In this document: piece by piece, positions 28,091 through 57,112 of the stretch
How positions within the stretch are numbered: the stretch's first letter is position 1
Layout of the letters: the number at the start of each line of letters is the position of its first letter
Assembly (NCBI RefSeq): GCF_036669915.1
Contig: NC_089324.1
Location: 10,130,835-10,194,834, forward strand
DNA length: 64,000 bases
DNA from: Pocillopora verrucosa
Lineage: Eukaryota > Cnidaria > Anthozoa > Scleractinia > Pocilloporidae
Direction of reading: 5' to 3'
Notes under the pieces: generated by a model
What the model was told of the DNA's origin: nothing
What the model saw: only the letters and a program-made list of their open reading frames with translations
The model's database searches: none
Program-made: the position numbers and the translations under genes

Positions 28091-31000
28091 TCACTCTGCC
28101 ATTTCTTGTGCAACAAAACTTTGAACTTGTTTCAAAAACTTCAAGAACTCCGGAAGTTTTGCAACAATGGCATCTGGCTCCCAGTCCTTGGTGCAAAGTG
28201 TCTCATCCCACTCTTTATAGTGCAAATGAAGATCAGTCTACAAACGAATACAAACAATGACGTGTAAATAAATAATTTTCTATGAGTAGAAAAATAGTCG
28301 TTATCTAATTCAAGCTTTTCTATTGCTTTTTTTGGCTGTTTTCGTCCTACGCTTCCAGCAAATCATACACAGTTTCCTTCGGTTTCGCTCTCGCAGAGTT
28401 TTTCGTTATATCATTTCCTCATCTATAATGTACATCAAAAAAACGTGTCGATGAGAATTCCGATGCAGAAATAATAAAATTTAGTGGAGAGAAAGGGTTA
28501 TTCCGTGCCAAAAAAGTGAAAAACAGAGAATTTTGATGGTTGATAAACAAAGGCACTCATAAAGAGCCAAACGAACACGACCTCTAAACGGCGTCACAGG
28601 CTCATGCAATTATGCTAGACTTTGAAAACATTTGTTCGCGCTCATCCATCCCAAATTACATTTGAAACCATGTGTTTACTCTAAGTATCTAAGTATAGCC
28701 CTGTGAAATAAGAATAAAAAATTTGCTGGTGGCATATGGAGAACTGTTTTAAAATACGTACATGAATAACTTTGTATGACATGATAAATGGAAGCTTAGA
28801 CGGAACAACACTCGGTGATCAAATCATAGCTGGAGTTCCACGAGGAAAAATGTTGTTAAATCCAAAAGAAACGCAGAAAGAAAATTTGAGTGACGTTTAC
28901 ATGATATGCAGTACCTACTCTACTTTAAACAAGGTAAGCCCGCCTATTTGTATAGTGTCCACGAGTAATCATAAAAAATTTGAGGCCATGTTGTAGAATA
29001 TTAATATTAACGAACACATCATTTTGACCGGCTTGGCCCGATGGAACTGTCCCTACCGATTCTCTGGAGTCTTCGTTTAGGATGTCACTTCGCCACGAGC
29101 TTTCCTTGGAAAGAATGATCGCGTATCCCTCATTGGCGGTGTACAAAGTTCGTTTGGAGGAGCGTTTATGGATCAAGTGAAATCCCTCGGGTATGGTTTC
29201 TTCTGGAAGGCGGAGTCCGAAATCATCTTCATCATCGAAGGTGAGTCCAGAGAGATACTTTGACATGATAAGTCTTGTTTCTTCATCTGGTGCATAGTCT
29301 GCGTTGACCGCACGATCTACAGAATTATTGAGAAATGTTACATTTTTGTTCGATTAGTGGACATTATAATTTAGATATTTAAAACAAGCTCCCATTTTGT
29401 AAGGACATAAATATAAATTATAACTTGAGGAAAAATGGCACACCGGACCTCGCCCGAGTTTTAGTGGAACTAATGGTTTTAAATATAGCTTTTTCAACCA
29501 AATCATTGATAATGGAAGAGTTCACCAAGTAATATTCGAGACGCAAACAGTATTACAGCCTTAAAAAGGAGCGTTTTAAATTTTATTAAGGATAATTGGA
29601 ACTTTTATCTTTATATTTGTATATACTTTTCTTACATCTTAATAAGTGGGAGATCCCTAACATGGTGCGCCAGTGCTTTAAATTTAAATCAATTTAAGCC
29701 TATTTTTCATCTGGTGGAGTGAATCTGTAATTTGTTCCGTTGACGTGAGTTTGTGCCGGTATGTTTCAGATTTTCAAACTGACGTATTACTCAGTAACAA
29801 TGACCTTTTCTTTCCAAGCTTACAGCAGTATGTTTATCGTATATTACAGCAATGAGAAGACTAGCCTCACGATGTGTCATATTTTCTCGTTACATAGTAC
29901 AGCGTGGAGCATGATGGTACAAAATAGCCAAACGACTAATATTCAGACAATTTTTTTAATTCTCGTAACAAACCTGCTTTAGATCTTAACTACCCCCTTT
30001 TTACGTTGGCCATAAGAAACTTGCAGCGCTCGCGAATATATAACACAGGGAGGAATGGGGTGTTTCAAGAAAACCTGAGGAGGATTGTAACGCATATTCT
30101 CTTGACAAGTTTTCTTATTATCAAATCTTTTATCGAATTCTTCGTTTCCTAGTTCCCTTTGCTGGCACCAAACTCGCACAGAGTTTTGATAGTGTATGTT
30201 CTTAGAATAGCAATTAAATAAAATCAATAATATTTCAAAGGTCAGTGCGATACCAAATTATAAGCGTTTCACACCCACCTGTTCGCCCTCGAATGGTTAA
30301 CCTGCAATCAAATTCACAACTGGGAAACAAAATATCGGCTTGTAAATATCTTCGAGATGGAAGAACCAGCCATCCTTGGCATCTCGACCGTGTTACCTCG
30401 TCCTCAAAGTGAATTGTCTCGAGGATATTCTTCACGTCGCTGAAAGGGATTGGAATATCCTCCAACTTCTTATTTATATCCGCCTTTGCCACCCACACCT
30501 ATATATCAAAGATTATACAAGACACGATCGTTTGTTGAATATGATCCCCTTAGAAACACTTATTTTAATGCAATGCAAGAATCTGTTTTTGCGTGAGATT
30601 CGTTATTTTCCTGTTAATTAGCTTGTTAGAAAAACTTAAGAGCTGTTTAACTATATATCTTAATGTAGGGGACTGGATATCATTGTATATCGCTCTATAT
30701 ATCATTCTTGGAGGTTTTTTAACCGAGTCTTTTTTCCCAAAGCTTTGCCAACTCCCAGTTTTAAGCTACCAAGAAGCTCTTAAAAAGTGCAATATTGCCA
30801 CCCTCTACCAACGGCGCCAATTGCTGACGGAGCGCCTATTCAGTGAGATCAAAGACAACACCTGCCACAAATTACATGGCCTTTTGCCGTCATGTAATCT
30901 TAGTACCGTAACCTTAAGGAGAAAGCGCGCTTTTTAACGTACCTTTTTGCAGAAAAAATAGACTGAAGAATAGTTTTATCATGTACAACGCGGCTTTTTC

Positions 31001-34000
31001 CTAACGGCTTTAACATATATAATGCGGCTATTTCTTAAATTTCACTATGTACAATACATATAATGATATATATCAATAGTATATTTTCTCCTCCGTTCAT
31101 GAGTTTTAATGTACATATGTAGTATTTTTAGCCCTTTTTTATTTAGTTTTTTATTCTTTTTTGTATTTAGTATTAATTAAAGATTTGTACAGTCCATAAT
31201 CCATCCTTGTGGTTGCAATGGATTTTTAATAAAGCTATGCTGCTATCTGTTAGGTTTATCAGCTGGTGTATTGATCTATTTTATATTGTGTGGATCACCA
31301 TTTCTAACCACGATGTCGCCGTACCTTGCATCGCACTTGGTGCCCACATGGCGTCGAATATGTTAAATCATATCTCACTTTAAAATCCTCAGGCGTCGTT
31401 TCGCACAAATTACCCTCCAGGATTTTCTCATCGAGATTCACACCTTCTTTGAAGGCCACTTTCCAATAGTTTTCTGCTTCTGAAGATTGAAGCTTTGCTG
31501 TAACCTCATCAATACTCCATTCCCCTTCAGTCACTTCCTCTACCAGAAAAAAAAAATAGGAAGAATACATTTTTGTTCTCATCACTTTTTTTTGTTACTG
31601 ATGCATCGGATATTTATGGTCAACTCCTCTTCATATAACAAGATTCAGTGATAAAAGTCAGGCCTGATGCACTATATCTAATTAATCCTTAATTCATTTG
31701 CAAACAATCGTCGTATAAGTTCTTTTCCTGTTCTTTATCAGCAAGAGCTCGTCCTTAACAAAGAACAAAACGAGTGTAAATCAAGTTTTTCTAACTTTTT
31801 GTATTAAAGTCGTTTACGCAGATGAAAACTATTTTGGAATTTCACAGTTTCTCGTCTGTCCCTGAAAATAAGAGTTTTTGCAATAAGCTAACAGAAGAAG
31901 TAGAACGGTTATGGGTGAAATTACCTTCATCGGCTCCCCGGATGATAGCCTTTCCCAAGTGACACCACATGTCAGCCTTCGGTTGCTGTTCGGTTTCATA
32001 CTTTATTTGACGTAGTGCCTTTAATGCGGCATCCATAATTTGCGAGTGATAACCATCGGTAGAACTATTTGGTTCCTAAATTAGATCAATCTTCAATTTC
32101 AAATTCTGTTTGACGTTGCAAAATGCATTAAATATGCGTTAACAACCAGTTTTTCACTAAAAAGGGTATGCGATAATTTCGAAACATTTTCATCGTTAAT
32201 GAAACTAGACGTACATGTAGTTTTAGCCTGGAAAAATTATTTTCTTGTGCTGCACTTGTGTATCTGCAGAGTACAGTTAAAAAATCTGCGGCATCGACGG
32301 GCAAATGAAAGTCTAAGTTGGTCGTAAAAATGTTTTTGATAGTCTTAGACTCCGGTGAATAAAAAGTTTCATTTATCACATAACAAAAATCCCCTTATGA
32401 TTGGCCGTTTGTGATAGCGTGAGCAGGGCCAAAGAGTGAAAGCCGTACAGCCCTCGAGAAGTGGGCTAAAAGAAGAAAGGAGGAAGAAGGAATTGCTCGG
32501 CCATATGAAACACTATCTGAGTTTATTACGGAAAATTTTTTGATAATATATTCATAGCTAACTGTCTTAGCGCGTTCCTAAACTACATCGCTTTTAATAT
32601 TAACTGTTATGAACAAACCTGATGTTCATAGTCCTCAGTAGGTTTCAGTCGACACTGACTTTGCAGTCCTGGAAGAACCATACGATCTCCCTCAGAAACT
32701 TGCTCCAGCTTCAGCTTACAATCAACTGGCAGATTACAGCCATCAATGAAACGACATACTTTGTTGAATTCGTTTTCCACTCCCCTTAGTCTTGCTCCAG
32801 CCTTGAAAAACAACGAATTTTATTATTGCATAAGCTGTTTTAAAATCAGCAAATTAAAAGTAGTAGAGCATTATTCGCAGTGTTCAAAGCTATACCAGAC
32901 ACCTTGTGATTTTCTAAAACAGGCGTCTTTTTATTTTCTCAAGTATTCTCCATATTGTGCATTCTTTTATCAGTCGAACTTGAATGTGCGGTACGTTCCT
33001 TGATCATCTTGCTCCTAGAGGTGAAATATTTCTACGTGCATGCAAATTATTTGCACATCAATAAAAAAAAGAAAAACATAACAAAAAACCGAATAATATA
33101 TAATGCCTGTTTTAAAGGTGTTTACTCAAGCAGACCTGCCCTGTGTGAACAACTAATTATTTTCAAGAGTTTCAGAAGTGAAAGACTACAATAATACTTT
33201 GATCAATTTGATGCATGAAGATGAAGGAAGACTCCAGTTGAGACTAAAGGAAAGAACTGACCAGTTGGCTGATTCTCCGAAAACATGAAAAATCGCCTCC
33301 CGATTCGGGAACTCTACATTTCTAATTTTCATTCCCTCAATTCCTTTACGGAAGGTCGACTTTCCGAAAAGCTAATTTCATTGTGAAAAAAAAAAAAATT
33401 GGCACAAGCGTGCAAACGACTACCGTGGTTGTCTTTACAAAGTTTTCTCTTATCAAGTTCAAGAATTTGAACTCTGTGCGACGTGTCTCGGAGGACAAAT
33501 TTCTAGGAGACAATTCCTAGGAACTTGTCCTTTAAAACTCCCCCTCCCCCACTACAATTTTTTTTGCAGCATTCGTGCTCTGTGATTGTGCCCCCGCCCT
33601 TATGTCTTTTTCATTTGTTCCCAAAACCTGTTTTCCTGGTGTGTTTTTCACGCATCATTTTTCTCTGCTATGTGTTTCAACAAAATGCACTTGAAACATA
33701 TCCCCATTATTGAGCCCACCTTGATGAACAGCGATACCCATCATAACGCTGACCATAATCAAAACGATTGCAATGGAAATGGGAATGCCCATCATGATAA
33801 TGATAATGTTCACGAAAGCACAAGATCGACCCTTATCATCATTTCAGTTCTCAAAAGAGATTTACAAAGGAATATTTTTGCTTTTAATTAATATTCTGTG
33901 AAGGAATGAACTTACGATGATAGTGCTAATGTGCAGTTTGGCCTGTTGTCGTTGCTGCTCAGTCCCACCAGCTATATATACTTCACCGTCTTTCCTTATG

Positions 34001-35865
34001 ACTTTTGCACCAGTTTGAGTGCTGATGTCACGGAGATTATCGCCTCCTTTACCCATTACCAAGCCTTTGTAAACTTGAGGAATCTCCACATGTTCACCAA
34101 GGGAACGTGCGTCGTTTCTCTTACGCTGTATTTCTTGCTATTATAATGAACGAAACTGATTTAACTTAGAATACGAATCTCAATCAGTTTTGGACAAGAT
34201 CAGCAAAAATAAGCCTGAAGGAAATAAAGCTCTTAAAATTTGGTAAACTTGGCTCGAAATTTTTAACCCCAGTGTTAGCGCCTTCTCATTCAATGAAAGT
34301 GAGTTTGTCTTTTTATCAGTAGAAACTTACCACCTTCTCTAAAATAAGATTCTTTGCAAGTGCTCGTTGCTCAGTATCGCCCCTTATTAAGAAGCTGTCC
34401 TCATCTCTCCTCGAGGTGATCTTTGCTCCAGATTTCGCCATGATCTCTCTAATGTTACAGCCTCCCTTACCAATTACATGGCCTTTCAAATCGCTTTGCA
34501 CCTCAACTAATTCACTCTCCACTGCCTCTTTATTTTGTTTCTTGAGGCGGTTGTAAGCTGATCTGTCAAACATAAGAATAGTTTTACCACAATTGGCATT
34601 AATGTCCCAATCTGATTGCCAATTGCCGTTGGCATTAAGAGTACAGACCACGCCGCTCGAGTCAACGTGTCACGCAATGGTCACGCAAGGAGAGAACCTT
34701 TTTCTTTGACGTCGATATTGAGATAAAAAATCGACAGTGGCTTAGAGCGGTCTGTTTAACAAATAGCTTCCAAGTTGCCATGCGTCTGTTCAGTAATAGA
34801 TCACAGAGGACGTCACAACGTGGTAAGAACAAAAAAGTGACACACGAGGCGCAGCATTTGTTTTATATAATAAAGAATTAAAAAACGTTTTAATGATGAC
34901 GTCATCTATACGTCTGTCCTCCAATAGATCATAAGTGAGAACCAATCAGAATGCGTGCATAACTGAGCTTATTATGTAAACTTCTATCGACAACGAAATT
35001 CGTCATCACAGTTTTTAACTGTCGAATTGTTAATAAGCCCCCTTTTCGATTGTGTGACACGACAAGCTCTGCAATGGAACATTAGGTTTGAATGACTGTG
35101 TCTCGTAGCATCAACCAAACACCCGTTTTAAAAATAACAAACCAGGTTAATTAAAAAAAGTTTAAAAAAATTCATACTAAGCTAGTTTGTTCAGTAAGGA
35201 ATAATATTTATCCAAGATGATATTTCATTAAGAAAATTTATATATAATGAAGGCAATAAGACTCAGAAATTCGCCACGATTATAATAAATTGCCCTTGTT
35301 TGATAATTTATACGTGTTATGATTAAAACTGTTTAAATTTATACATTATACAGTGTCGTGACTAGAAAAAAATTTGCATTTGTCACTTTGGTGTTTTGCC
35401 GGCGCGGTATCACAATACTTGAGTATGGTTGATTATAAACACTCTAACCGATACTTGCAGTTACAAACCTCCTAGTTTTCAAATTGACCTGGTTTATGAT
35501 AAAGAAAAAATAAAACTTTCCGGTTGTCATTGTAACATCGGGACTGTATACAGAATCTGTTTGAATAAGTGATATTGGAAACCGAAGTAAGACGAGATCT
35601 GATGAGTACATATGAATTCGAAAAAATTTTAGACACCAGCCGAGGACGAATCGAAAATTAATTTGAAAAAAGAACGCACCCACTTTTCTTTAAGCAAATA
35701 AGGTAAGGAAAGAAAGTAAAAGGGTTCCCTACTTTTGCACCTAAATAGGAAAGTTGAAGACATTTCAAGCAAGAATTTAAAAGTTGATTCGATTACTTTA
35801 CTTATAACTTCTTACCCTCCTTTCGAGTCATTCGATCGTCTCCTATCAAAACCACGACTTCCCAT
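28091..35865 (-). CDS. Two-KH-domain protein, gene A
   Basis: Nine exons assemble in phase into 559 residues: 35816-35865, 34331-34562, 33916-34137, 32619-32801, 31925-32075, 31325-31539, 30279-30498, 29057-29316 and 28091-28237 (TGA stop). The borders are GT-AG and the exon lengths add to exactly 560 codons. Exon 1 encodes MGSRGFDRRRSNDSKGG. KH1 has LKGHVIGKGG (loop GKGG at residues 48-51). KH2 has YKGLVMGKGG (loop near 123-126). KH domains bind single-stranded RNA or DNA through this loop. The remaining 390 residues include KADMWCHLGK, an acidic RYDLTY...GHQVRCK block, PFSDVKNIL...RCQGWLVLPSRR and a C-terminal LHLHYKEWDE...LPEFLKF. I do not recognise this part. A LINE remnant lies in intron 6. 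The start is supported by phase match and an ETS-type palindrome 113 bp upstream. Confidence 0.85.
30717..31250 (+). mobile_element. LINE 3' fragment in intron of gene A
   Basis: The plus strand reads LSYQEALKKCNIATLYQRRQ, then HKLHGLLP and LRRKRAF. This is the typical C-terminal end of the polyprotein of non-LTR elements that run past the reverse transcriptase. An AT-rich tail follows, closing with AATAAAGCTATGCTGC at about 31230. The element is 5'-truncated, as usual for LINEs, and lies opposite to gene A. Confidence 0.7.
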
Positions 35866-37374: not shown

Positions 37375-40300
37375 TTAGAGCTTATCAGCTATGACAGGTA
37401 GCTCACAGTCGTTTAATAGGTCGTAAAGATCTCCTACAGTTAGTGGACGTCTTTTTGCAATGTAATTCAAGGCAGCATCAACTGGATTCAAGGTGCGCTG
37501 GTCAAGGAAACGAATTTCGTCTGGGGTCAGCCCTAGTTTTTCGGCAAAAAGCTTCCACTTGTCTGAAACTACAGAAATAAATACGCTTTATCAACACAAC
37601 TGGTTTTTGAGATAGTACAAGTACATTCGTCATCTTTTACTTTACATATTTTGCGAGTTTTGTCGAACGCTACCATAAAAGCTTAAAATAAAACTGGCTT
37701 ATACTTCCAACCTATAAAACCTATTTTACTAATAAAATGTGAAAAGTTCATATGCTTTGTTTTATAGCCTTACCACTTAGGGCAACGGTGAGCTTGCTCA
37801 GCTGGCTGATAGGTATTTGTTGAATGGGAAGTCTCTCAGACAACAGAGGAGCTAGCAAAAAGAAATAAGATATGTATATAAAAAAATAATGAAATCCAAA
37901 AGCACAACACCTAACAACCCAAAAAGGTCGGGTTCAAGAATAAAATGTTCAAAATGAACAAAGACGCAACTGCGGGACAGTATATCTACAGTGACAGGAA
38001 AGCGCTCACTTTGTCTCCAGGCAGTTCACGCTTAAATGGGAGTTTATAGTCTTGAGTAAATTGACTGCAAAATCCGTTCACATTGAAAATTGTTGTAGAC
38101 TCTAAAGAAAAAGTCACGCTTATTAGGAACACATGAATTTCAACACGCTGAAACAGTGGCAAATAACCCTCTTCCAATTAAGTCACCTTATGATATGACG
38201 TTAAGTTCGAGAAACTTACTCTTTGCGTCACCGCAATTATGTTAGTTTTCGTCTCTCCATTTAGTTGTTATCTTGTAGTGTCGTAAGTTTGAAAATCTGA
38301 ATGTCGCGAAAGTCTTATGCTGTAAGATTTGAAAACCTGACAGAAGGGCGAATCCGTAATGTACATGAAAAACATTTGGTTTACAAACAGAGCCAATACG
38401 ACTTTAAATGTTCTGATATATTATATAGGATAACCCATGACCATCGAGGAATAAGTCTGTACTGTACTCGGAATGGATATATATTTCTTTTTCTCAGAGC
38501 AATATTTCGACTGCATAAAAATGACCTCTTGGTAAATTTGAGTTTTTACACCGTAGGGAAAGTTTTGAAAGCGAACCTACCTGTGATCCCTGCTGGCACA
38601 AGACTTCTCAGCTCTTTAATCACATCATAGCGGCCCTCGATGTTAGCCTTTTTGGCCAAGTAACGAGTCAGCTTCATTTTATCAGGGTCGGGATCTCGCA
38701 AAACAACTTGGTCCAGATTGAATTTGTCCTTCAGTTGTTGTACAACATCTTTGCAATCATTCGACGGTGACAAAAGGGAGTCTAGAATCTCAACAGGAAC
38801 AGAAAGGGTTCCATCTTTATATCCTAAGGATACAAGTTTATGAAAACTTGAAGAATGTGTGACATCATAACTATCTAGCCAGGTCCTCAGCGCCTTGGAA
38901 TAGACTAATTTGAGAACCGCGCAATTGCGTACGCAAACACGACCATTTGAGAGTGACAAAGTGGATTCACTTTGAGTGAATATAAAAGGATACTTCAAGC
39001 ATCATGAGAACCTGCACTTACTCTTAACCAGTATGAAAAATGGCTTTGAAATATTGTTCATAAACAACTAGGCAGAGTGATTTGAGATTTTGGTGCATTG
39101 TAGACGATAAACTGCGTCGATTGTCTTAAACATGCAATTCTAGGAAGGAAGCTCACCTGTATCCAAAGACAAAATGTTCTCACAGTAGTTACTGCATGAC
39201 ACCTATGATATATAAAAAAGGGAGAGGACTGAAAAATTTTCTCACATTTCACGATCTGAGAATTATAAAATTGTGGTTCAAAAATGGCCAGAATATATAA
39301 TGATATCATGCTTTGTTGTTACCACACTGCGTTTTGATAATTTGTTGACCTTTACATAAAATATATTCTGGCAATGATGTGATCACATCTCTTACACTCC
39401 CAAAACTCTTCGGAAATTCTGCAAGAATCAGACATATTCCAAAGAGCCTTTTCAATTTCTTTGTCTTTAAAGATTGAAAACTATGTTAATACACTCCCTG
39501 ATTTACGATGTATATGCCTTAGCTAAATTATATTATTTGACCTGCAATAGTAGAGTTACTTGTTTTTTCTGCAGCTTCGTAATGATAATTACCTGATCAT
39601 CCTGAGGTGGAAACCAAGGAGCCCAGCGCTCAGGGCTGAATCTACTATTATGCGCACACACCGATTTGTCGCAAAAGACTTCCCCCTTAGAAGCAAACAA
39701 ATCAGACTGGGACCAAAAGTGAAGGCAGTCCTCTTCTTTGCAATCTAGACTCTGATGCTTATCGCAGTAGTCATTGGCACTTTGTTCACGGCAAACCGGG
39801 CAGATGATACCCATTGTGTATCTCATACTGTTCAACCAGCAGAACTGATTGCGCATGCACTCCAGAATCAAACCAAACTGTCTACAGATGACACGGGCAC
39901 ACGTTAATTCATGTTCTTTATAACAGATATCCATCGACCTCTGGTACCGTAAAGCATTTCCTAATCCGTCGTCTACACTCCCACGATGATAGACAACCTC
40001 AATGTAACACGAGTGACAAAGAAGAATCACAGAGTCTCCAGCATCTTTTGACAGAAAAAACCTGACAAAGCTGTGGTACATCTTTGGTTTTGCTGAGCTC
40101 CAAAACATTTCTTTTCCCCAAAGAAAAAACTGCAGCACTAGTCGAGGAAATAAGCCAGAAGGCACTTTACCAGATTCAAATTTGAGAACAAGAGAAGGCA
40201 TATGTGCAGTTGACACCAAGTTCATGACAGCTTCTGGTGGATGTGACTTCAGCATTGATGGTACCAGGTATTGTTTATTGCCGGAAACATCAGGTAAGGG

Positions 40301-41910
40301 CCATGAACATAGCAGACTAAATCTCTCCATTATTGCAATTAAGCTTTCAGATGGTTCTTTGTGGAGAATCAAAGGTTTCCAGACATGTTCCAAAAGCTTT
40401 TCCTCCAAGATTCCTTCCTTTTCGAGCCTACACCATAGGTCTACAAATGGCTTTTCTTTCCAGTGGTAGGGTTTTACAGTTATCACCTTTTTGAAAACGT
40501 CTATCAACCACTGAGTATCTAGGACCACCATATCTTTCAGCTCTGCTGTGTCATCAAAATGGATCAAGATTCTTAGGTCATGCAGAAAGTTGAGCAGCGT
40601 CTTAAACTCATCTTTACTCTCGATTTCGCATTGATCAGATGCAACGCACTTTGCTTTAGCAAGTGAAATCCACTTCTGCCCTTCTTTCTTCATGCATTCA
40701 AGTGTCTTTTCGTACTTTAACCACTTAACAGGAATTACTTCTTTAACATGTGGCAATTCCTTGGAAACAGAAAGAACATCCTGTCTTAAGCGCTTGACTT
40801 CTTGACACTCAGACTCACTGCCTGACTTTGTATTATCCACACAATACACGTCAAACAAATGGGTACCAAAGGGTCTCTCTTTCAATGTCCCATAAACTTC
40901 ATTCGCAATTTCAAATGGGTCTCTGCCATGATAAGGTTTATCAGCGTGGGTGCAGACTAAAAAAACGACTGGAAGTTGCTGGGGAAGAACATCAGAACCA
41001 GGTTCTAGATCCTGCCCATGGCTTGGGTGTTGAAAGGCTAAGGACGCCAATGAATTCATCCAGAAATCTAGATAATCCAAGTTAGTTTTCAGGTTGAAAC
41101 TGTCTTGGGATTTTTTGTACACTCCCTGCTTCACGAGAGGCTTAGCCTTTTCGTCTGGATTTTGGCTGAGGTCATAAACAAGAAAGTAAATTGCTCTTGC
41201 AGTGAGAAAGAGGGGATGTGTCACATAATAAACGGACTGTCCGGCAAAATCCCACAGAATTGAGTAGATATCTTCATCTTCTTTTTCCTCGAGTTTAAGT
41301 TTGCGTTCAATTCTTGAAGCAATTTCTTGAAATTCTGATTCTTGTTCTGGAGTGAGATAAAGTAAATTTTCTTCTGGTTTCTGGTCAGGAGCCTCTCCTA
41401 TCGCTTTGAGAATTTCACCCGTGCTATGTTCAGTGGATAAACGAGCCTCTGTTGACTCGATTTCCTCTGGGCCAACTGTTTTGTCACTGGGGATTGCCTC
41501 CAAGAGATCATCAGTTTCTTCAAGATCATAGTCTCCTTCATCAGCAATGTGTTCTCGTCTAAACTCAGAGACAGTTTGTATCTTCTTCAACGTATTAGCA
41601 GCCAACTGTGCTACGTTTTCTTCAAATGAAATAGCTTCTTCATCAACGTCTCCTTCTTCATTCTTTTTCCCTGTCGTCCACATTTCTGTTGTCACTTGAA
41701 AATGGTAACGATCTAAGTCGATGCCCACTGTGCTCTCCTCTTCTGGGTCGAAACACATTCCCTTTAGCGATTTCTTCAAGCTAGTCTTTCCAGATCGGTC
41801 TTGTCCAACCAACATCAATGGTACTCTTCTGTCACAGATTTTTCCTTCGTCCAATGCGTCATAGTAGGCTTTTAAGGCTGAAGGGCCCCTTGCAAGGATC
41901 TCCGGAGGAA
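37375..41910 (-). CDS. Roc-COR GTPase with C-terminal Death domain (partial 5' end)
   Basis: The main exon (39593-41910) is open for about 770 codons. It begins PPEILARGPSALKAYYDAL, then the P-loop GQDRSGKTS, switch II DFAGQ, and THAD as the G4 motif. This is the Roc GTPase of ROCO proteins. COR-type sequence follows, then a Cys-rich CPVCRE...CDKHQ segment. Further exons are 39157-39202, 38581-38904 (or a start at 38823), 38010-38101, 37774-37851 and 37375-37562. The last two form a Death domain with KLTVAL, DKWKLFAEKLGL and DEIRFLDQ. Exon 38010-38101 leaves a phase mismatch with the next exon. Skipping it restores phase, so it may be a cassette or carry a one-base loss at its donor. No LRR or ankyrin exons are visible upstream before gene B. 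The protein is cytoplasmic, probably a signalling or death adaptor. Confidence 0.85.
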
Positions 41911-42587: not shown

Positions 42588-45500
42588 CTAACCTGTTCTT
42601 GTTGATCCAGTTTCTTTCATTTCCCGCACGACATAGCCTTGAATTTCCTTTACAAATTCAAGAAATGCAGGCAACTTTTGAACTATGATTTCCGGTTGCC
42701 AATCTGAGCTACTAAGGAGTTTGTCGCACTCTTCGCTGTGTAGATGGAGGTCGGTCTACCCATTGGAAACAGAGAAAGATAGAGTTAGGACTCGACAGTG
42801 TGTTCTTCAGAAAATATGCCATTATTTGTAAAATTCATGAGATTCAAAGTAGTAAAAAATTAAATGTTACCGATTCTCTGTTTGTTTCATTTCCTGAAGG
42901 GTCAGTCCACCATGAGTTCTCCTGCGAAATTATGGCAGAGAATCCTGGACGCGTACTGTACATTTTTCGCTTACAGCAACGCTTATGGAGTAAGTGAAAT
43001 CCCTCAGGAAAATTGTGATCTGGAAGACGTAATCCGAAGGCATCTTCATCTGTCCAAGTTAATCGAGAAAGGTATGTGGACAAAGTGCGTCTCACTTCGA
43101 TTTTCGGAACGTCTCCTCTTTCAACAGCATAATCTATGGGAAGATAAATGTTTCACAGTATTTACTTTTGTGCAATATTTTTAGAGGTAGAAAATAAACA
43201 ATTTATCATGCAAAAATCATAGAGCTGTATCATCGTGAGATGGGAAGGATTCAGAGCGAACTTCATTCCAAAGCAATTCGTTATAAATTAAACACACACG
43301 TGGCCCTTTTCGGTTTTTTTCTGTTTTGAGTTATTGCTGAGCAGCGTTGTTGCGCATCGACATCTGACCAGGACGTGGTGCGTGATGGAATAAGTGATAC
43401 GAGATTCGGATTGTTGAGACGCTGAAAATAAAAAATTGTCATTTTCACATATTAGATATAACCACTGGTCTTTATGAAGGTGCGACGTTTAATCGCGTCA
43501 AAAGTCTACTTGGTAACGATGACAGTAAAATGGGAAGGACGAATACATGGTTAAAAGATTGATGGATGAATGTTGTATCGATGAATGAAGGACGTCATTG
43601 GTTAAAAGAAGAATGAAAGCCTCTGGGAAACAGAAGTGCTTGCCTATCAAGGATATAGGAATGTGAATATAGGATGCTTAAGTTTGATTGTGGTGTAAAT
43701 GAAGATAGTAAGTCTTAGATCAGGTGATTTAAGTGGAGGAAGATGTTATGCAGTAAATGACGCAAGCTTACTCAGAGAAGAAAATTTACTTGGCCTTCTT
43801 TCAGCGTGTAAATCTCAATATGTTTAAAATATATTGAGTTTTCTTGGCTGATTTTGTGTCACCAGCCGGTCTCTATTGCGTGGATGGAAGTTTAAGAGAT
43901 CTATCACCAGAGGAATAGAAAATTCACGTAATGATAGACAATGATTCAGAACCGGAGAAAAAAAAATCATTAATTCTGTCTTGCTTCCGGTTTGGAAACC
44001 ACGTCCCACAACCCTATCGAAGTTGCATAAATTCAGTTGTTCTTTTCTGTATAAAACAATGTCATTGTGCCGCAGGAAAGAGCCTTCAAAAGCTAATCAG
44101 GGCAAGGATGAATGAAAAAGGGTGAATGAGTGGTTGTTGGGATGAATGGAAGGACAAACAGGCGGATCGAAGGATGGATAGAGGAATTAATGAATGAATG
44201 AACAAATAAATGATTGATGATTACATATGACTATAACGATCACAACTAAACACAAATTGTTAGTCTTGCCTCTTCGCTCACGCATAGTGAACCTGCAGTC
44301 TAGCTCGCAGCCAGGAAACAGAATGTCGCTCTGCAAATGCCTTCGAGATTTAAGTACGAGCCATCCACGACAGCGTGCTCGTGTCAAATTATCTTCGAAA
44401 TAAATCTCCTCCAGTACATTTTTAACGTCACTGAAAGGGATTGGTATATCTTCCAGCCTTTTCTTTACGCTACTCTTTGCCACCCACACCTGTCACATTA
44501 ATAAAGAGGAAAAAGCACAGTATGTAATGGGGTGTAAATTTATGATTCAATTTTTGGCCCACCTATTGTTTGGGAGAGAGAAAACCGACGTGGAAACAGA
44601 GAGAAACTGGGTTTTGTCTGTCCTTCTATCAACTCAGTTGATAATACTAAATTACCCTATTGACTCTATTGATTGTGAAGTTTGGACGGCTATCACATAC
44701 TTTTGGATATTGAGTATTAATCTACGCTTTCCCACCGTAAACTATACCAGATATTAAAAAACAAAAAAAAAAAACAAGAAAGAATGCAGTGCCTCTGAGA
44801 AATTCAGTTAACGTGCTGGTGACCTTGAAAAATCCGTCAATTACTTCGTGTTCAAATGAATTTCTCCCTTCGCACAAGCATGATCAGTGTGGAAAGTCTT
44901 CATGCGCTTAGTCAATAAATGGGCCATCTAGGGACAAGCCGTCAAAGGGCAAAGCAAATTAATTAAGTTTGGTGTAAAAATATAACACAAGAACTTAGGA
45001 GTTCTGTTACGCATTACACACTTTCGTTGTCTGCATAGGAAGAAAAGAGTCAAAAGATCTCTTTAACTTACCTTACACCTAAGTTTATGAAAGCAGGGTG
45101 TCAGATATGTCAGGTCATATCTGGAGATATATTCGTCGTCTTCAGTGATCTCTATGTAGCCATTTCTTTTAAAGATATCCTCTGGAATATCATCTCGCTG
45201 AGTAAAAGAAACTTTCCAAAAACTTTCCCCTTCATCGGGCTTTTGAAACTTTTCTGTTATCTCCTCGATTCCCCACGTTTGTTGGAGAACGTCTTCTACG
45301 ATATCAAAAAGGACATTTACATCATGAATATGTTGGTAAATAAACCACTTTGTAAGTCTCGCGAGGTGTGACAAGTCAGCCAGGTCTGTGTTATCAGTAA
45401 GGAAATGCAAAGTGCATACGGGAAACAAAAAAAGAGAGAACATCACAGAGAACGCGAAGGAGAAACGGCGAGAAGTACGACAAAGAAGAGACAACGTAAG

Positions 45501-48021
45501 AGAAAAAAACAACCTTTAAACAGGATGGACTTTTGATACTAGGACCTATATTCATCAATGAAAGAGAAAAATGAACACTACCTTCACCAGGTGCTCGAAT
45601 AAAGGAGGTTCCTAAATGGCACCACATGTCGACCTTTGGACTCTCAGCTGTCTCCACGTTATTTTTAATCTTCCTTAGAGACATCAAAACTTCATCCCGA
45701 AGATTTGATTGATACACGATGTCGTTCCCGTTATTGTAGGAATCCTGTCCAGATATGAATTTGCGTTTGGAGTAAAGAGTGTAAATTCGCGACAAAATCA
45801 TGAAATTGATTTAGCGTACGATTTTTGAAATTTGTCAAAGGGGCGGAAAAAGAAACCTGGGATGACGATTGAGTGTTGATAGCACGGATCTCATGGTTTG
45901 AAATTCGCAGTCTGTATAAGCATGGAATGAAAAACGCCGAGCATAAATCACAGAAAAGGTCAGCTATCACAGTATTCCTCCGTCCATTTCTAGTTATAGA
46001 ATAAAATATGTTCAATACGGGTTGACCAATACGTGCACAGGTCCCTGCGGAATTTTGACATGAAACATACCTCCCTTTTAAAGTGCTCAGCTGGCTTCAG
46101 TCGATAATAGGTGTAATCCTCTTCTGGTGTCTCCTCAAGCTTGAGTTTACAGTTCACAGGCAGATGACTGCCATCGACATAGGAGCAAACTTTGTAAAAT
46201 TCGTTTTCAAAATCCTTTATTCTTGCTCCAGCCTGAAGGTTTAAAGGCATCGTTACCAGTGCTCAGAAAAAGGTAAAATGCAATGATAAAGTAGTTTTCT
46301 AACCATCATATCGCAAGCACAGTTATTGAAACCCGACACGAGTGTTCAGCTTGTGATAACTTAATTAGTTTACAATTAAAATGAAGAAATCTCAGTCACT
46401 TTTCGCTGAGGATTAACTAAAACCAGAATTGGTCAACGAAAAATTTTTCACCATGCTCTGCGTGTATTCTCTCCTTCTGATAAAGGGCAGAGATTAACGG
46501 CGATAAAGGCTTTTGATGGAAATTTAATACCTTGATAATTGGGCTTTTTTTACAGACTTTTACAATTTTACAGAAAGCTGAAAGTCTAAGTTTTCTCCCA
46601 AAATTTTAACTTTATTTTAATTAATATTATTTTCTCGATAATTCACCTTTCTTTTATGTTTTATTTAAAATTTGAATTCCAAGAGGTCTGTCTTCATAAA
46701 GAGGGAAAGGAAAATACAGTTTAAAACTTTTCGGCGGCCTATTGTTTGTTGCTAATAACCTATCTTCTTGTTCTCTGCCTATGTCAGGCCTAAATGTTCC
46801 TTTCGTTAGTAGCTTGTAGCACGGGCTAGGAGTTTCATATGTATTGGCAGCTTCACGGAATCAACTTAGCAACAGTTACTGGCCCATAAAACAAACAAAA
46901 GGCCGAAGAGACCGTTACAAGGGCACATTAAGACGACGCAAGGAAAAGAAAACACGATATATTTAACTAGAAGCATGGTTTTAAACATCACACATCTTGG
47001 TGAGTTATCGAGTTAGTTTTAAGTGGTTACAGTCCAGAAAACACATTTTTTTTTCTTCGAAAAAAGGGCACGAGTGCTAGAGTTTACTCCTCAGTTTGCA
47101 ATAAGCAGTTCCTGTTTACCACACTTGATAAATACCATCGTTTTTTCTCCTTTAATTTTTAGTCTGCTACACTCTGGAGTTCAGCAAGAATATCCTAAAT
47201 CACGCCCGTACTGCGGTCTCGCTTTGTGGATGATTATCAAATAATAAATTAGTTCATACCACAATTAATCCAATGCTAATTTTTACTTGTCGCCGTTGTT
47301 GTTCTGTTCCACGGACTATATATACTTCTCGTTCCTTTACAATAAGTTTTACTCCTGTCTGGGTTTCTAGCTCGCGTAACTTAGCTCTCCATTTGCCAAT
47401 CACCCTGCCTTTGTGTTTATCTGGAATTTCAACCAGCTCGTCCCAGTTATCTTTCAGCTCCTCCTGAAAAAAGGAAATTTATGGAGCTAGTTTTGCTGGG
47501 GTCAGCTGCCTTTAAAAGAACTGTCAATATCAAAATTCTGAGATATGTCCAGAAATGCATGCAGTAACGAAGAATCGTGAAAATTCGTCAAGCTGATTTC
47601 GCTTAGACAAATTTGACTGAAATTCGCCAAAATTGTCAAATCAATAAACATTCACTCGATTTGACGAAATTTCCTTAAATTTGATATTTTCCTCACTATG
47701 TATATTTCTGAACATTAGTGAAAATTATTCACGAAGGACTCAACATGAAGTAATGTTGATCTTAACACGATAACGTATCTTGAACTGACCAGTTTTTCAG
47801 ATATCAGCTGTTTGGCCATCTCTATTCCCTCTTCGTTTCCAATGATAGTAAATCCTGGTTGATCTCTGCTCCCGGGATCAATTGTGGTGCTAGAAATCTC
47901 AATCATTTCATTAAGCACGACTCGCTGCTTACCAATTACATGGCCTTTCAACGCTACTGGAACAGGCACGAAGGTAACCAGCGATGCATCCATAGTTTTC
48001 TCTCCTTGGTACCAGATAAAT
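42588..48021 (-). CDS. Two-KH-domain protein, gene B, with altered KH loops
   Basis: Eight exons match exons 2-9 of gene A in order and phase: 47790-48021, 47260-47463, 46071-46232, 45582-45744, 45072-45295, 44270-44489, 42871-43133 and 42588-42755 (TAG stop). Exon 2 is 232 nt, as in gene A. The frame is open throughout, about 545 residues without exon 1. Both KH loops are changed: KH1 reads VIGKQR and KH2 reads VIGKWR, so the second glycine of GxxG is arginine in both. The intron after 44270 starts with GC, a known minority donor (AG-GCAAGA). The C-terminal blocks VDMWCHLG, RYDLTYLTP, PFSDVKNVLEEIYFED and LHLHSEE are kept. A phase-2 first exon was not found. A candidate ATG exon at 50359-50391 is out of phase. 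Confidence 0.85.
44100..44215 (+). repeat. Degenerate GAAT/GGAT microsatellite
   Basis: Imperfect GAATGAAT and GGATGGAT units run through this stretch, within the intron between the two last-but-one exons of gene B. Similar units occur at 43550-43600. Confidence 0.6.
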
Positions 48022-50549: not shown

Positions 50550-53500
50550 ATGGAATCAAAAAGAAAACGGTAAGGCAATTATATCAAATATTCATTCAAG
50601 ACGAGGCTCTTCGTTTCGAATACATTTGACGACAATCTTGTCAAAAAAGTGTATCGTAGCTTCGTTATTGTTTGTCAAAGAATGGTTCGACACTGTCTTG
50701 ATTTAAAAGTAACATTTACACTCATGTTTAAGGCAAATTTGATGATGAAGTCATCAATTGCGTGATCAGTACGTTTAAAAACTAATGATCATCGGTGAAA
50801 TGAAAGTATATTTTTACAGCCGTTTTGTCAAATTTGTTTAAATTTCCTCCACTCGGATACTAAAATACTGAAAATCTTCTATATGCTGTACGCCACATTT
50901 GCAATAAGATATAAGAAACGATGCAGTACATATGCAAGTATTACTCTTGCAAGCTATTCGGGAGCAAAATTGTAAATTACCGTGGTCAAAAAAGATTTTT
51001 CACTTGAAAAACATAAAGACAGAACACTTCCTCTTACAATTCTGACAAAGATGATTGCTTCCCAACGTTGACTTTAGATTGGAAAACTGCCCATGGAGCA
51101 AAACCATTTTTCAGGGTTTTCAGATGATAGTTCCAGACTGTAGTAACAAATCCTGAAAGAACAATGGAGAGCGAATATCTGCATGTCCCCAAGGAACTCA
51201 AAGGTCATGTTATTGGAAAAGGAGGACTAGTGATAAAGGAGATCAGAAAGAGTTCCTCGGCAAATATCACTTCAAGGAGCAGAGATGAGGAAGGATTTAC
51301 TATCACCGGTACCAGGGAACAAATAACAAATGCGAAGAGATTAATCTCAGAAATAGTGGTAAGTTTAAAACATGGAACAATTCTGTAAATGTTTTGTAAA
51401 TTTAAGCAACTTTGAGGAGGGCCTGCAATTGCAGGCCATCTTGTAATTTGGAATTAGTTGATAAAATTCCGTTCAAAAACGGAAATGAATCTGTAAATGC
51501 TCACCGTGCTATAAAGGTAACATCTCTGGGGAGAACCTGGAAATGCATCCGGCCATCCTTTTACTTTTACTAAATCACACGACTGTTAGATAAATAGAAT
51601 ATTGCCTGAATGAAACTTTCGGCTCTTTACATTGTCCTTGACAACCACGAGTGGAAGCACAAGGATGCTGACCTTAAGTCGTTAATAGTTGTGCAATTTT
51701 CGACAAGTTCATGGTATCTCTGTATGATGAGTTTGTTTTCTGTGTGATATTAACAGGAAGAAGTTAAGGGAAGGAAAACTGAAGGATCTCCGGGTGAACT
51801 GGTAAAAATTCCAGATAAGTACAAAGGAATCGTCTTTGGTGTGGGAGGCGATACCCTCAAAGAAATAAGCACACAGACTGGGGCAAGGATGATTCGTATA
51901 CAAGGAGAATGTTATATAACGAGTGGTACCAAGTCTCAGAGAGATATGACAAAATTACGTATTTGGAGTATAGTGGTGAGTATCACCTTATATACTGAGG
52001 TCTACAGTTCAGTTGTCATGATAAATTCGAACTCAGATCTTAACGTAAGAGTTTTCTGGAACAACGGTTTGGTACAATTTTTGCTCGTTGCCGACTCATA
52101 AACAAATATCATACCAATTTGTGGGTAAAATTCCAGTGAAGGAAATATTTTCGTCTTGTCTTTGCCAGGAAATAAATTTACGTGAGGAAGTCAAGGGTAT
52201 CGATCTGTTCATCAGCATGGAAATGTGCAATCCAATTGGTTCTTCAAGTGGTCTGTTACGGGATAATCTTACCGACAGTAGAACACTACAATCCTACAAA
52301 CTCAACTACTTTATTAAACAACGAGTGATATTCTTAAAAAGTAGCGACTCCTAAAGGCAGTACAGTATTTATACTCAATAAACCTACTCAAGCCTACTAC
52401 AGTCTATATCTTAGCTCACCACCGAGGCAAACTCACATTTTCTCCAACGTTTCTTGAAATTAGCAATTTTCCATTGCAGCTCTCTCTCACGGTATAGCAC
52501 TCCCAAAAACGACAACTACAAGTACTACATAATTGAGTCCTTATATACTTTTACAAAGTGTTCAGGAACATTCCAGAAGCTTACGAAAGAACTATTTCAC
52601 TAGAAAGTTCTATAGTAAGCATGTCAGCATGACTAAGCAGTCTGGAGATTTCTAGAAGCTTATATTTAGAACAGAAATTGCCCATAACAGGTCCTAGATG
52701 TATATCTGTAATACAGGCCACTGAGAGGACCGATTCATCGATAAACATTGTCTGTGTAGAAAATGAATGAAAAGCCTCTCAGGCAATTTTCCGCAGAATT
52801 TAGCTACATTTTTCAGTGCGGACGCTTTCATTTTTCATAATTGGTAAAACTGATGTATAGGTCAGTGCAATGTTTAACCATATTCGCTATGATATATTTA
52901 TTTCGGGAAAAGTACTAAACTTGTAGACCTTGCACTGTTACAATATCCCGCTGCTGGTTGTAATGGCAATCCAAAATTAAAATATAAATTTGGAGAATGA
53001 TGTTTTTGTCTTGTCACAAGCGTGAGACAATGCTCCACCACTGAGAGACTCCATGGTGAGCGAGGCCCATTACGAAGTTCAAGTAAGACACGCTGCCTGC
53101 GTACTGTTAGGATCAGCGATGTCGCTACCGTCACGTTTGTAAATGGAATAAGAGAGACGGTTATGTAGACACGCAGGACGCGTGTCATGTATGAACTTCC
53201 TGATAGCCTCACTCGCTGTAGAGTTTCTGTGGCTCAGTGGTGGAATACCGAAGGTCTGAGGTTCGATTCCTCGCCGGGACTCTTTTTTCCTTTGTTTCAC
53301 ACTCGTGAAAAGACGAAAAAACATCTTTCTCTATTTCTTTACCAGGCTCAAAACGCACCTTCTCTCTCACTCAATATAAATTTGTTTTAACTCCTTTACT
53401 ATATTATTTGAAGGCAGGGGCAAGACTAAGGGGAGCTGAAAAGCCTTGTAATAAGGTTTGTTGCTACATCGATGGCTGGAATCTTTCGGAAAACTCTGAG

Positions 53501-56500
53501 TTAATGCTGAAGCCCCTGAATAGTTGGTTGGGTCTTCTGGAAAAATATGAACATTATCGACTGCTACCGACTGAGGGATATGAACCTCTGCAGGTTTGTT
53601 GATTCTGAAGACCACAATTCAACGGTTAAGACGAGTTTTTTTAGGTTTTATTTTTGATTTTGTTTTTGTCTTTGTTCTCAGCGGTTTTTGTTATTTTATT
53701 TTTACTGTTTTGATGATGATGTCTCTGTTTTGTTTTGTGATATAGTTGTTTAGTTCTTTTCCTCGGTTATGGTGAATAGTTGTAAATTATTAGGTACAAT
53801 CAGTAAAAAGTTTTCCTCTGTTTTCTCTGATCAAGGAATCAAGTTGCAGTGATAGCACGGCATACGAGTTGAAACTAAAAGAAGATGCTTTGGAATCTCT
53901 GCGCAGAATAAAAAGGGAAAAGGGATCGAAGGCCGACATGTGGTGTCATTTTGGAAAAGTATTGATCCGCGGACCTGATGAAGGTAAACTTATTGAGTAT
54001 AATTTGTTACAGAAGACTATTACAGTTCTCTCTTTTTATGAGTATTGACTCCTCAGTTTGAAAATATCCACATAACAGGAATAAATATGTAATAGACCTT
54101 ATGTAATAGAAGAAATTGTCATAAAGTCAAATCTATTGCACTTATCTCCTAACTTTTCTGATCACTTATCTAAATAATGATAAGAATAATGATCAAAATG
54201 TACTCAAGACTCACTGGTGGCGTTCTAATCATGAAGATCTGAAATCGACTCCGGCTAAACCTGCAGTAGTGATAATATGAAACACTTGATTGATTACAGC
54301 GGAGGTTTCAGGTGAAGAACAATGGAGTATTGAAGAGGCAACGAAAAAATTTAAACCTCAGGAAGGACAAGATTACTGGAAAATCGCATTTAAAGAAGGT
54401 GTCAATGTTGATCAGCAAATCTTAGAGAAAATCTTTGGTCAGAAATACCCCAGAGAATATCATGCAAGATATGACTTGACCTTCGTCATATCCAGCGGAC
54501 ACGAATTGAGGGGCAAGGTACGTAGAAGGGGTGCAGGGAGGAAAATTTAACTGGCTCAAAACTTGATTTTATACCCCAATTCTTAAGATTCTGGACCTAC
54601 TGGTTGATTTCTCAAAACTTCGTACGTTTGGCTAAATTCATAGTTCACGGAAAACTAGTCCACTTTTTAGTAGCCTATATAAAATTCAGTTTGGTTACGC
54701 TCGTTTCAAAATTTACGAAGGTATTTCAAACCCTTGGATGTAAGCACCAACATTTTTTTGACGGCATGATTGCGGAATGACACTCTGTTTGAGATGGTAA
54801 CCCAAAGCATGAATTAGGGAATTTAAGATGAATCTAATGATAACCTTGTATTTAATGATTTAAAAAATGTTTCACTAGAAGTTATTGGGCCGTTAGTTTA
54901 TTAGTTTTTATCTCACCTCCATTAAATAAAGACATCACTTACTTATTTACTATTGCTTCCTAAAAAAGTCGTAACATGATTTTTGTTGTGTACAACAGAT
55001 ATGGGTACTGAACAAGGACTCTGACAAAGCAGTGAAAGAGAAGGCAGTCCCCTTTAGTGACGTCAAAAATATATTGGAAGAAATTTATTTCGAAGATGAA
55101 AAAACACGCTCGCGGTGTCGAGGATGGCTGGCCCTTCCATCTCGCAGATTTCTACAGGCTGACATTTTGTTTCCCGGAAGCGAACTTGATTGCAGAATAA
55201 CTTTACGGAAACGAAATGGTAAATGTTATTTAAGTATCTTTCTGTATTTAAGTCGTTCACTATTTTTTTAAGTGATCAATCCTAATTTAAGCTGCCAAAA
55301 TATAGGGAATAAAAAGTAAGATGCGGTTTAAAAAGCTATGTCTGCCATGAAACATGAAGTACCCGTTAGGAGTACTTACTCATTTCACGCTGTATAAGCG
55401 TCATCAAGAACACGTCCTATACTGAATTTCAGTTTGCCGGTCCGTGTAACTTTGAACTCTCAAGGAGTCAAGTTTGCTAGTTGGCCATTTGACCAATAAA
55501 TCTATCAATAAGTAAATAGATAAAGGAACCCGGGGAGGACTGGATGAATGTAAAGAATTATAAATGTTATTCAAACTTCCGATTGAATTAATGCAACGAC
55601 GTTTGATTCTTAAAATACCATTAAAAAAATGCAGATCATCTCAGAGTAAGAGCTTGTTTACATGGAGGTGGAGGACCCCAGGTAGGTGGGAAACCTAGGT
55701 GGGGTAACCCGCCTGTCCATATAATTTCTTATATTATCTTGATCACGTTTACATGATATGTGGGTGACCCGTCCAGGCGGGTTTCCTGGTCTGCCAGGTA
55801 GGGTAACCCTGTCAGCTGGGGTGACAATTTGCCATGTAAGCGTCTCAAGGTGGGGTAACCCGCTTAGCCGGGGTCGCGTTCATGGCAAAAAGCTCAAAAG
55901 CGAAACGTGTGTTTTAAAGCTTTGTACATTTCCTAGCCGTCTCACAGCAGAAATCACCAGAAACCGTAACGGACACTCAAGGCGTGTAAAATGTTCACAT
56001 TTCAGAATATTTAGCGTTGTAAATTGACCATATTTCGTTTCCCAAACTATTCCGTATAACATATTAAGTCAACGGTTCCTCGCGTAACCTAACACCGCGT
56101 AACACAACGCGTGACGCTCTCATGAATAAATACATTTGTGTCCGGGAATTAATCTTTCGTCTTTCTCGAGATGTGAGCATGAGCCTTTGCTAAATATCCT
56201 TAATTGTAAGCGCAACAACAACCTCAAGAAACCTCACCCCAGCACCCCGGGGTTGTAAGATTGTATGTAAACGCGTTTTATTTTTCGACTACGGCTAGGC
56301 GGGTTACCTCACCTACTTGGGGTCCCCCACCTCCACGTAAACAGGCCCTTAGATAAAACGTTGATTTTTCATTACATGATGCATGGCTTTAAGTGTTGTT
56401 TGTTTAACTTGGCTAGAGATATTACAATCATGTTTTTCTTATAGATGATGCTGTCTCTGCCGATTATGCTGTAGATCTTGACGAAAATGAAAGACAAACT

Positions 56501-57112
56501 CTGTTGTCATATCTGTCTAAGCTAACTTTTACGTTCACGGAAGACGATGAAGTAAATGGACCAAATCTCCCTACCGATGAAACTTTGTCGAAGGAAATAT
56601 TTCTACGTCACAGACGATGTTCTCATCGAACTGTATTCGAACCACAAGCTGGATTTTTCGTTATCCTTTCAAAGGAGATGTCATTATCCTGCGATATTGA
56701 GAAAAAAGAGGAAAGAGAAACGGTATAAATATTATGATCGTCATCATTATTGTGACTAACATCCTCGCATATTGAATCAGACACACACAATTTTATAAAT
56801 TTGTAATAAAATAAATAATTGCCTTCACGAGTAACCTGTAATCGCAGTATCTATTTCGGCCAATCAACAAAAGTTTCGATTTCAACGTTTTTTGACACAT
56901 TTTATTTTCAGCATGTAAACCTACTGATAAAACCATCTTTTTTTTTGCAGATCGATCTGCATCTACACTGCAAAGACTGGGACGAACAATTAAAGAATGA
57001 AAATTGGAAACCTGAAGACATCGTTGCGAAGTTACCTGAGTTTCTACAATTTGTTAAACGAGTTCAGAGTGTTATTTGCAGTGAACTGCGCCACAGCAAC
57101 ATTGACACTTGA
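50550..57112 (+). CDS. Two-KH-domain protein, gene C
   Basis: The secure exons are 51160-51358, 51757-51975, 53414-53593, 53836-53983, 54300-54517, 54999-55218, 56445-56722 and 56951-57112 (TGA stop). Their phases equal those of genes A and B. A first exon at 50550-50569 (MESKRK, phase 2, GTAAGG donor) fits an acceptor before 51160. That acceptor has a poor pyrimidine tract, so translation might instead start at the ATG at 51164. KH1 has LKGHVIGKGG and KH2 has YKGIVFGVGG, both with a normal GxxG. Conserved blocks KADMWCHFGK, RYDLTF, PFSDVKNILEEIYFED, RCRGWLALPSRR and LHLHCKDWDE follow. Introns contain a solo LTR, SINEs and a MITE. The gene is inverted relative to genes A and B. Confidence 0.85.
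52169..52354 (+). CDS. Possible alternative last exon of gene C, ending in an LTR
   Basis: After a TTTGCCAG acceptor, a frame in phase with the KH2 exon reads EINLREEVKGIDLFISMEMC. It runs across the left border of the solo LTR and stops at 52354. AATAAA follows at 52377-52382. Splicing KH2 to this exon would give a protein with only the two KH domains. There is no expression evidence, and no matching exon was seen in genes A and B. Confidence 0.35.
   Translation, partial: EINLREEVKGIDLFISMEMCNPIGSSSGLLRDNLTDSRTLQSYKLNYFIKQRVIFLKSSDS
52254..52689 (+). mobile_element. Solo LTR, 436 bp, in intron of gene C
   Basis: It starts TGTTACGGG and ends CCCATAACA, with matching inverted termini. A perfect 4-bp target-site duplication GGTC lies at 52250-52253 and 52690-52693. 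AATAAA at 52377-52382 fits the LTR poly(A) signal. No internal retroelement sequence is adjacent. Its length is close to that of the LTR at 4747-5178, but the sequences do not look alike. Confidence 0.75.
52985..53075 (-). mobile_element. SINE fragment, inverted
   Basis: Read on the minus strand it has CTCTCAGTGGTGGAGCATT, a box-A-like head. A tail GTGACAAGACAAAAACATCA follows, similar to the tail of the element at 53221. The middle with box B is missing. Confidence 0.5.
53221..53345 (+). mobile_element. tRNA-derived SINE
   Basis: Box A (GTGGCTCAGTGGTGGA) and box B (GGTTCGATTCC) are followed by CTCGCCGGGACTC. A tail follows with ACTCGTGAAAAGACGAAAAA and ACATCTTTCTCTATTTC. From memory, this head-tail pair is a common repeat in stony corals. 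It lies in the intron before exon 53414-53593 of gene C. Confidence 0.65.
55647..56351. mobile_element. MITE with TA target site
   Basis: The left end AGAGCTTGTTTACATGGAGG matches the complement of the right end (AGGGCCTGTTTACGTGGAGG) over about 55 bp with a few differences. The element is bounded by TA on both sides. Inside, GGGTAACCC-type motifs recur. It carries no transposase. The TA duplication fits Tc1/mariner-related or similar MITEs. It lies in the intron before exon 56445-56722 of gene C. Confidence 0.65.

Follow-up and report, generated by a model that had tools for sequence, protein, structure and literature searches.

The fungal protein Sls1 has two KH domains followed by a beta-barrel, the domain known as SLS1_C. 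Tandem KH domains also occur in KHNYN, an antiviral protein for which the available part of one study gives no detectable RNA binding (PMC11997328). Roco proteins, which carry a ROC GTPase and a COR domain in tandem, are divided into LRR-RocCOR, LRR-RocCOR-kinase and DAPK1 groups in a review whose available sections name no form with KH domains and relate a proposed nucleotide-linked monomer-dimer cycle of ROC-COR (PMC6337361). Here we analyse a 64,000-nucleotide (nt) stretch of the genome of the coral Pocillopora verrucosa (the window; contig NC_089324.1, positions 10,130,835 to 10,194,834), in which three related genes (A, B and C) are predicted to encode two KH domains and a C-terminal module apiece. 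The original prediction described them as a family of three genes, perhaps sensing or regulating RNA. The analysis partly confirms this: the shared structure holds, the gene boundaries do not, and gene B very probably runs on, past the end it was first given, through an exon for ROC and COR.

Gene B very probably continues into a ROC-COR exon

Gene models were built from paired homology and splice sites. The features of gene B, in window positions, are:

42593-47993, minus strand: N-terminal part of gene B, KH-KH-C-terminal module (homology and splice sites)
47790-47993, 47260-47463, 46071-46232 and 45582-45744, minus strand: gene B exons 1-4
45072-45295, 44270-44489 (220 nt), 42871-43133 and 42593-42755, minus strand: gene B exons 5-8
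39593-41910, minus strand: gene B exon 9 (2318 nt), encoding the ROC GTPase and COR; P-loop GQDRSGKT, acceptor in phase 1
38581 to 38823 or 38893, minus strand: probable exon 10 of gene B
37774-37851, minus strand: probable exon 11 of gene B
37375-37568, minus strand: probable exon 12 of gene B, Death domain and stop

Exon 9 alone matches the Roc profile with 56.6 bits (cut-off 27) and COR-A with 72.2 (cut-off 35.3). Joined, exons 1-9 stay open for 1307 residues, across which the Pfam matches to KH_1 (53.6 bits), Roc (55.1) and COR-A (71.7) all exceed their cut-offs. The arrangement recurs in four paralogs, F1-F4, on contig C13 in the same cluster as the window: in B and in each of these a ROC-COR exon lies directly downstream on the same strand, with the P-loop GQDR[SA]GKT in all five.

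The junction is equally constant. Exon 8 has an AG/GT donor at nt 163, in phase 1 and scoring 3.8-4.5, in all five genes followed by ROC; the ROC exon has the acceptor CAG/TTCCTCC, also in phase 1, and the joined codon is Val in every case. The intervening intron 8 measures 682, 436, 838, 892 and 1134 nt in B, F1, F2, F3 and F4, respectively. A survey of exon 8 covering GT from nt 100 onwards found no phase-1 GT at nt 163, and none scoring above 2.6, in the nine genes that have no ROC exon (A, C, G1, H1-H4, K2, K3), although the sequence behind exon 8 is short in some of them (0.6 kb in K3). Across the genome searched (353 Mb, 52 contigs), none of 81 ROC-exon matches falls near these nine. Five of 17 full exon-8 places have ROC just downstream, and nine of the 14 members with a modelled exon 8 look standalone. 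We regard the join between the KH module and ROC in B as very likely.

Behind the ROC exon, exons 10, 11 and 12 of B join in phase 1 with an open reading frame and give a Death domain of 33.1 bits (cut-off 22.6), and the corresponding region of F1 scores 25.9; Death exons follow ROC in both copies that were followed far enough (B and F1). They are probably joined to ROC-COR in one gene. From the conserved phase-1 junction, the ROC-COR exon and the Death exons together, B is most likely to be read as KH-KH-(Sls1-like)-ROC-COR-Death. Genes A and C are standalone, whereas B is probably the front of a signalling protein; if so, the three genes differ in kind.

Exchange of head and GTPase body

A query made from the start of the ROC exon gave the 81 genome-wide matches, 61 of which begin at query residue 1 or 2, which shows that this exon edge is widely shared. 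When the match tables for exon 8 and the ROC exon were compared, the only ROC places just behind an exon 8 were those of B and F1-F4. One further ROC-COR exon, at C13:10358655-10361003, is 70% identical to that of B and keeps the acceptor; no KH-module exon was found within 3 kb upstream of it.

F1 documents an exchange. Its exons 6, 7 and 8 are 88, 84 and 86% identical to those of B (exon 8 shares 140 of 163 nt with B and 108 of 163 with F2), and its exon 9 is 61-62% identical to that of B and 86-93% to that of F2. The end of F1 intron 8 matches F4 (73% over 230 columns), and no match was found between F1 intron 8 and B. On these identities F1 is a mosaic that changes over within or close to intron 8, which means that head and GTPase body were exchanged at or near this intron.

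Structure of the three genes

The models of the other two genes are:

28091-34573, minus strand: gene A, standalone KH-KH-C-terminal module (homology and splice sites)
34331-34573, 33916-34137, 32619-32801 and 31925-32075, minus strand: gene A exons 1-4
31325-31539, 30279-30498 (220 nt), 29057-29316 and 28091-28237, minus strand: gene A exons 5-8
51164-57112, plus strand: gene C, standalone KH-KH-C-terminal module (homology and splice sites)
51164-51358, 51757-51975, 53414-53593 and 53836-53983, plus strand: gene C exons 1-4
54300-54517, 54999-55218 (220 nt), 56445-56722 and 56951-57112, plus strand: gene C exons 5-8

A, B and C are related. Each has eight coding exons in this part, of which two encode the KH domains. 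The shared exon phases first noted along the three genes are borne out as one identical intron series, 0,0,0,1,0,1,0, with all introns GT-AG except intron 6 of B (GC-AG). Exon matches among them have E values of 5e-5 to 1e-31 (tblastn), more than chance would give, at pairwise identities of 45-55% in the KH part and 42-54% in the rest. The eight-exon models also agree with the two KH domains and the C-terminal part of about 390 residues originally proposed. The exon described as a seventh exon of 220 nt does have that length in all three genes and is the sixth coding exon; in several copies an acceptor-like site stands immediately 5' of exon 1, which suggests a preceding untranslated exon, and only with that exon would it be counted seventh. 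Gene A has GTG where C, F2, F3 and F4 have their start ATG, so its start is placed tentatively, and the ATG chosen for its model overlaps a possible splice acceptor (the sites concerned are at 34573 and 34522, minus strand).

The KH_1 profile (Pfam, cut-off 21.5 bits) scores 89.4 in A and 74.6 in C, above the cut-off as in joined B. Weak matches to the N4BP1 KH profile fall below the cut-off in C (E 0.021) and K1 (E 0.15). Matches of C to Ribosomal_L6 and a lid domain (E 0.09-0.18) were dismissed as single, weak and unshared.

Family members across the genome

Far from having three members, the family has 12 more that were modelled fully or partly by exon searches (F1-F4 on C13, H1-H4 on C11, G1 and K1-K3 on C12), and an exon-8 consensus finds 21 places, 17 full and four fragments, the full ones on three contigs. 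Its tandem clusters are consistent with the proposed lineage expansion, as seen within this one genome. Of the models, 13 comprise eight exons (A, B, C, F1-F4, G1, H1-H4, K2), K1 has seven and K3 six; in K2 the script placed no start codon and an in-frame ATG stands just upstream. Because the script imposed intron phases on the paralogs, and not exon lengths, the evidence from phase is that of A, B and C together with the good splice-site scores of the paralogs. Exon 6 measures 220 nt in nine of the 15 models, 238 in five and 229 in one. A tree of the 15 members separates A, B, C, F1-F4, G1 and H1 from H2-H4 and K1-K3.

The window also holds one fragment of the family:

59052-59234, minus strand: fragment D, a copy of the first KH exon, nearest to B (71% nucleotide identity over 683 aligned columns reaching upstream of the exon)

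It has no in-frame ATG where B starts, and no other family exon was found between it and gene C. Broken copies nearest gene C lie in the same cluster (C13:10240386-10241771, 10266579-10270057 and 10287969-10289011), and a ROC fragment lies at C13:10287394-10287625. Dead copies of the exon-6 region are dispersed on C4 and C12. The four that were compared (C4:14338300-14338900, C4:4468800-4469300, C12:7147100-7147600 and C12:7023300-7023800) align closely, flanks included, and have a common in-frame TAG, as if repeat-borne.

Elsewhere in the window, 3912-4259, 9812-10318 and 18591-19232 (all minus strand) are three copies of an unnamed protein family, with about 45-48% identity to the third over the main aligned segments and no Pfam match at E up to 0.01. 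A C-type lectin exon lies at 22743-23210 (plus strand; Lectin_C E 1e-12), with a partial relative at 26055-26315 (plus strand).

The C-terminal module

The region behind the KH domains had been described as matching no named domain. This stands for A, B and C, in which the part of about 390 residues has no Pfam match above cut-off (E up to 10), and needs qualifying for the distant paralogs. All six scanned members of the distant subfamily match SLS1_C below its Pfam cut-off of 23.4 bits (E 0.0071, 0.026 and 4e-4 in H2, H3 and H4; 0.015, 0.0046 and 0.023 in K1, K2 and K3), at overlapping profile positions. A consensus of the distant group gives E 1.1e-4 and a mixed consensus 0.023, and one reversed and one shuffled consensus give no match. 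We treat SLS1_C as a lead, backed by where the match falls, behind two KH domains, and not as membership: the C-terminal part may be distantly related to the Sls1 barrel and so not a wholly unknown module. A clear match to a characterised family of the same architecture was sought and not obtained, SLS1_C staying below its cut-off.

Other searches added little. H2 has a weaker match to DUF7905 (E 0.048). An NCBIfam scan of A and one consensus returned nothing, and a PHROGs scan of the same two returned, for the consensus only, two PHROGs of unknown function (E 0.033 and 0.085). Relatives were absent from scans of IMG/VR and GTDB. A search of the PDB with a full-length profile of 27 sequences found KH proteins only, and a search with the consensus had no C-terminal match. 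C-terminal matches to a tau fragment (E 0.0003, 28 positions, no stretch passing alone), to myosin-binding protein C (E 0.015) and weaker ones were judged to be chance. Structure prediction of two single exons gave a mean pLDDT (predicted local distance difference test) of 47 and 49 and no usable model.

A candidate receptor and its alternatives

On balance, we favour the explanation that in the C13 cluster the KH-KH-C-terminal module is spliced onto ROC-COR, probably with Death, to make a candidate Roco receptor for nucleic acid or ribonucleoprotein (RNP). The module would be a portable unit of about 530 residues, joined in B and its four paralogs by a phase-1 intron to a ROC-COR exon that is used widely in the genome, with Death probably next. 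The KH-KH-barrel head would bind nucleic acid or RNP, or another protein in copies that have no GxxG loop (perhaps B and F1); ligand binding would switch ROC-COR to another nucleotide or oligomer state, after which the Death domain would recruit an adaptor in the fashion of innate immune receptors. Standalone A and C, the head alone, might be its partners, regulators or decoys. The sequence itself gives the exon structure, the conserved junction, the F1 mosaic and the domains ROC, COR and Death; from these we infer the single transcript, the ligand, the switch and the immune role. The original proposal of RNA sensing or regulation may hold: the KH domains are clear, but two members have lost the GxxG loop from both; the ROC-COR linkage of five members and the Death exons shift it from a regulator towards a signalling receptor.

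A broader suggestion is more tentative, and we would put it short of probable: a class of cytosolic receptors with a KH-KH-Sls1-like barrel head on a Roco-Death switch, heads and bodies being exchanged through a fixed phase-1 intron in a tandem cluster, would be a modular nucleic-acid or RNP sensor unlike the RIG-I-like, Toll-like and NLR receptors. Were it so, the GTPase-and-Death platform familiar chiefly from DAPK1 would carry an RNA-binding-type head in an invertebrate animal; that head, swappable at one intron, would offer a testable case of how a new intracellular receptor originates; and a domain associated with mRNA handling in fungal mitochondria would gain a possible animal relative.

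Several observations weigh against the receptor reading. Every exon join is a prediction from sequence, and in all five genes an in-frame stop lies 5 to 116 nt behind the exon-8 donor. Exon 9 ends in phase 0, whereas the acceptor at the conserved start of exon 10 is in phase 1; B and F1 each have a phase-0 acceptor ahead of exon 10, and a search of B for a conserved exon bridging 9 and 10 found none. Death exons are seen in two of the five genes, B and F1, the copies followed far enough. The GxxG loop is missing from both KH domains of B (GKQR and GKWR) and of F1, which argues against RNA binding by these two and makes it doubtful. For the barrel, the best SLS1_C scores (22.1 bits for a consensus, 20.2 for H4) do not reach the cut-off; none of the eight scanned members of the A-B-C subfamily matches (A, B, C, F1, F3, F4, G1, H1; F2 left out); the six matches are not independent, as H2-H4 are 80-84% and K1-K2 95% identical in the C-terminal part; and a genome search with the model gave no candidates, as did the control genomes. 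Finally, the KH ratio of nonsynonymous to synonymous substitution rates (dN/dS) of K1-K2 is 0.89, on very few changes.

The missing loops bear most on the possibility that these proteins are scaffolds and not RNA sensors, the tandem KH binding protein, as proposed for the extended di-KH of KHNYN, and ROC-COR-Death signalling from that. In KHNYN, KH1 has no GxxG, RNA binding went undetected and a protein-interaction role is hypothesised in the part of the study available (PMC11997328). B and F1 are constrained despite the loss of GxxG, with a dN/dS of 0.28 in the KH and 0.20 in the C-terminal part. Substitutions among A, B and C are near or past saturation at synonymous sites (dS), so selection is better read from such closer pairs; overall, 15 of 16 measurable values lie at 0.20-0.64, a set that leaves out the C-terminal dS of A-B, A-C, A-F4 and G1-H1. 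However, GxxG is intact in 12 of 14 KH1 domains (six of 14 KH2), and we consider the scaffold rather unlikely.

Less likely still is a pair of adjacent genes, copied together, in which the KH module ends at the exon-8 stop and ROC-COR has a separate 5' exon or begins at the ATG before the P-loop. The stops behind the donor would fit this, as would the standalone modules (A, C and others) and the ROC copy at C13:10358655 with an acceptor and no module upstream. However, only in genes followed by ROC is the donor preserved, exact in base and phase, and the exon-8 tails past it differ among the five, except in the close pair F2/F3. Nor does the ROC frame of any of the five have an ATG from the preceding stop up to the acceptor; its first in-frame ATG stands directly before the P-loop.

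We give as little credence to a housekeeping RNA regulator of the Sls1 type, with standalone proteins that serve the delivery or translation of mRNA and a fusion that is incidental. It would account for the sub-threshold SLS1_C matches after two KH domains, and Sls1 acts in a complex required for translation of cox1 mRNA in fission yeast mitochondria, according to the available part of the study (PMC11015131), beyond which the open-access literature gave nothing on SLS1 or DUF7905. Yet several predicted N-termini (MESE.., MEWE.., MDAS..) are unlike mitochondrial presequences, judged by eye, and a housekeeping gene would not usually show tandem copying, broken copies or exchange of modules. The GTG of gene A and the broken copies of the cluster might suggest that A, perhaps along with others, is decaying and without function. 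We consider this very unlikely, since A retains eight open exons and all splice sites and its KH dN/dS with B and C is 0.20 (dS 2.0-2.5, near saturation).

Comparison with known systems

By the features tested, the candidate receptor encoded by B would be a Roco with a head that we have not found recorded. Among the matches listed in the open-access literature there was no KH-ROC-COR protein; 'ROC-COR' and 'KH domain' occur together in PMC7159879 and PMC9375908, in unrelated contexts in the parts available. B resembles the DAPK1 group in its tandem ROC GTPase and COR, intact P-loop and probable C-terminal Death domain, and differs in the two KH domains and unnamed module in front of ROC-COR; its joined 1307 residues have no kinase, ankyrin or LRR match at E up to 1. 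With Sls1 the family shares two KH domains and then, in distant paralogs, an SLS1_C-like region below cut-off; unlike Sls1, A, B and C have no such match, five copies are linked to ROC-COR, and no mitochondrial signal was seen by eye. Tandem KH domains, some without GxxG, are common to this family and to KHNYN and N4BP1, as the accessible text has it (PMC11997328), and no NYN nuclease domain, in which those proteins differ, was matched in the proteins scanned here. The nearest parallel to a ROC-COR core with exchanged heads is that of the brown algal ROCO proteins, proposed immune receptors whose ligand-binding exons are shuffled; there, in the available part of the source (PMC11378527), the shuffled exons encode LRR motifs, whereas here the shuffled part would be a KH-KH module.

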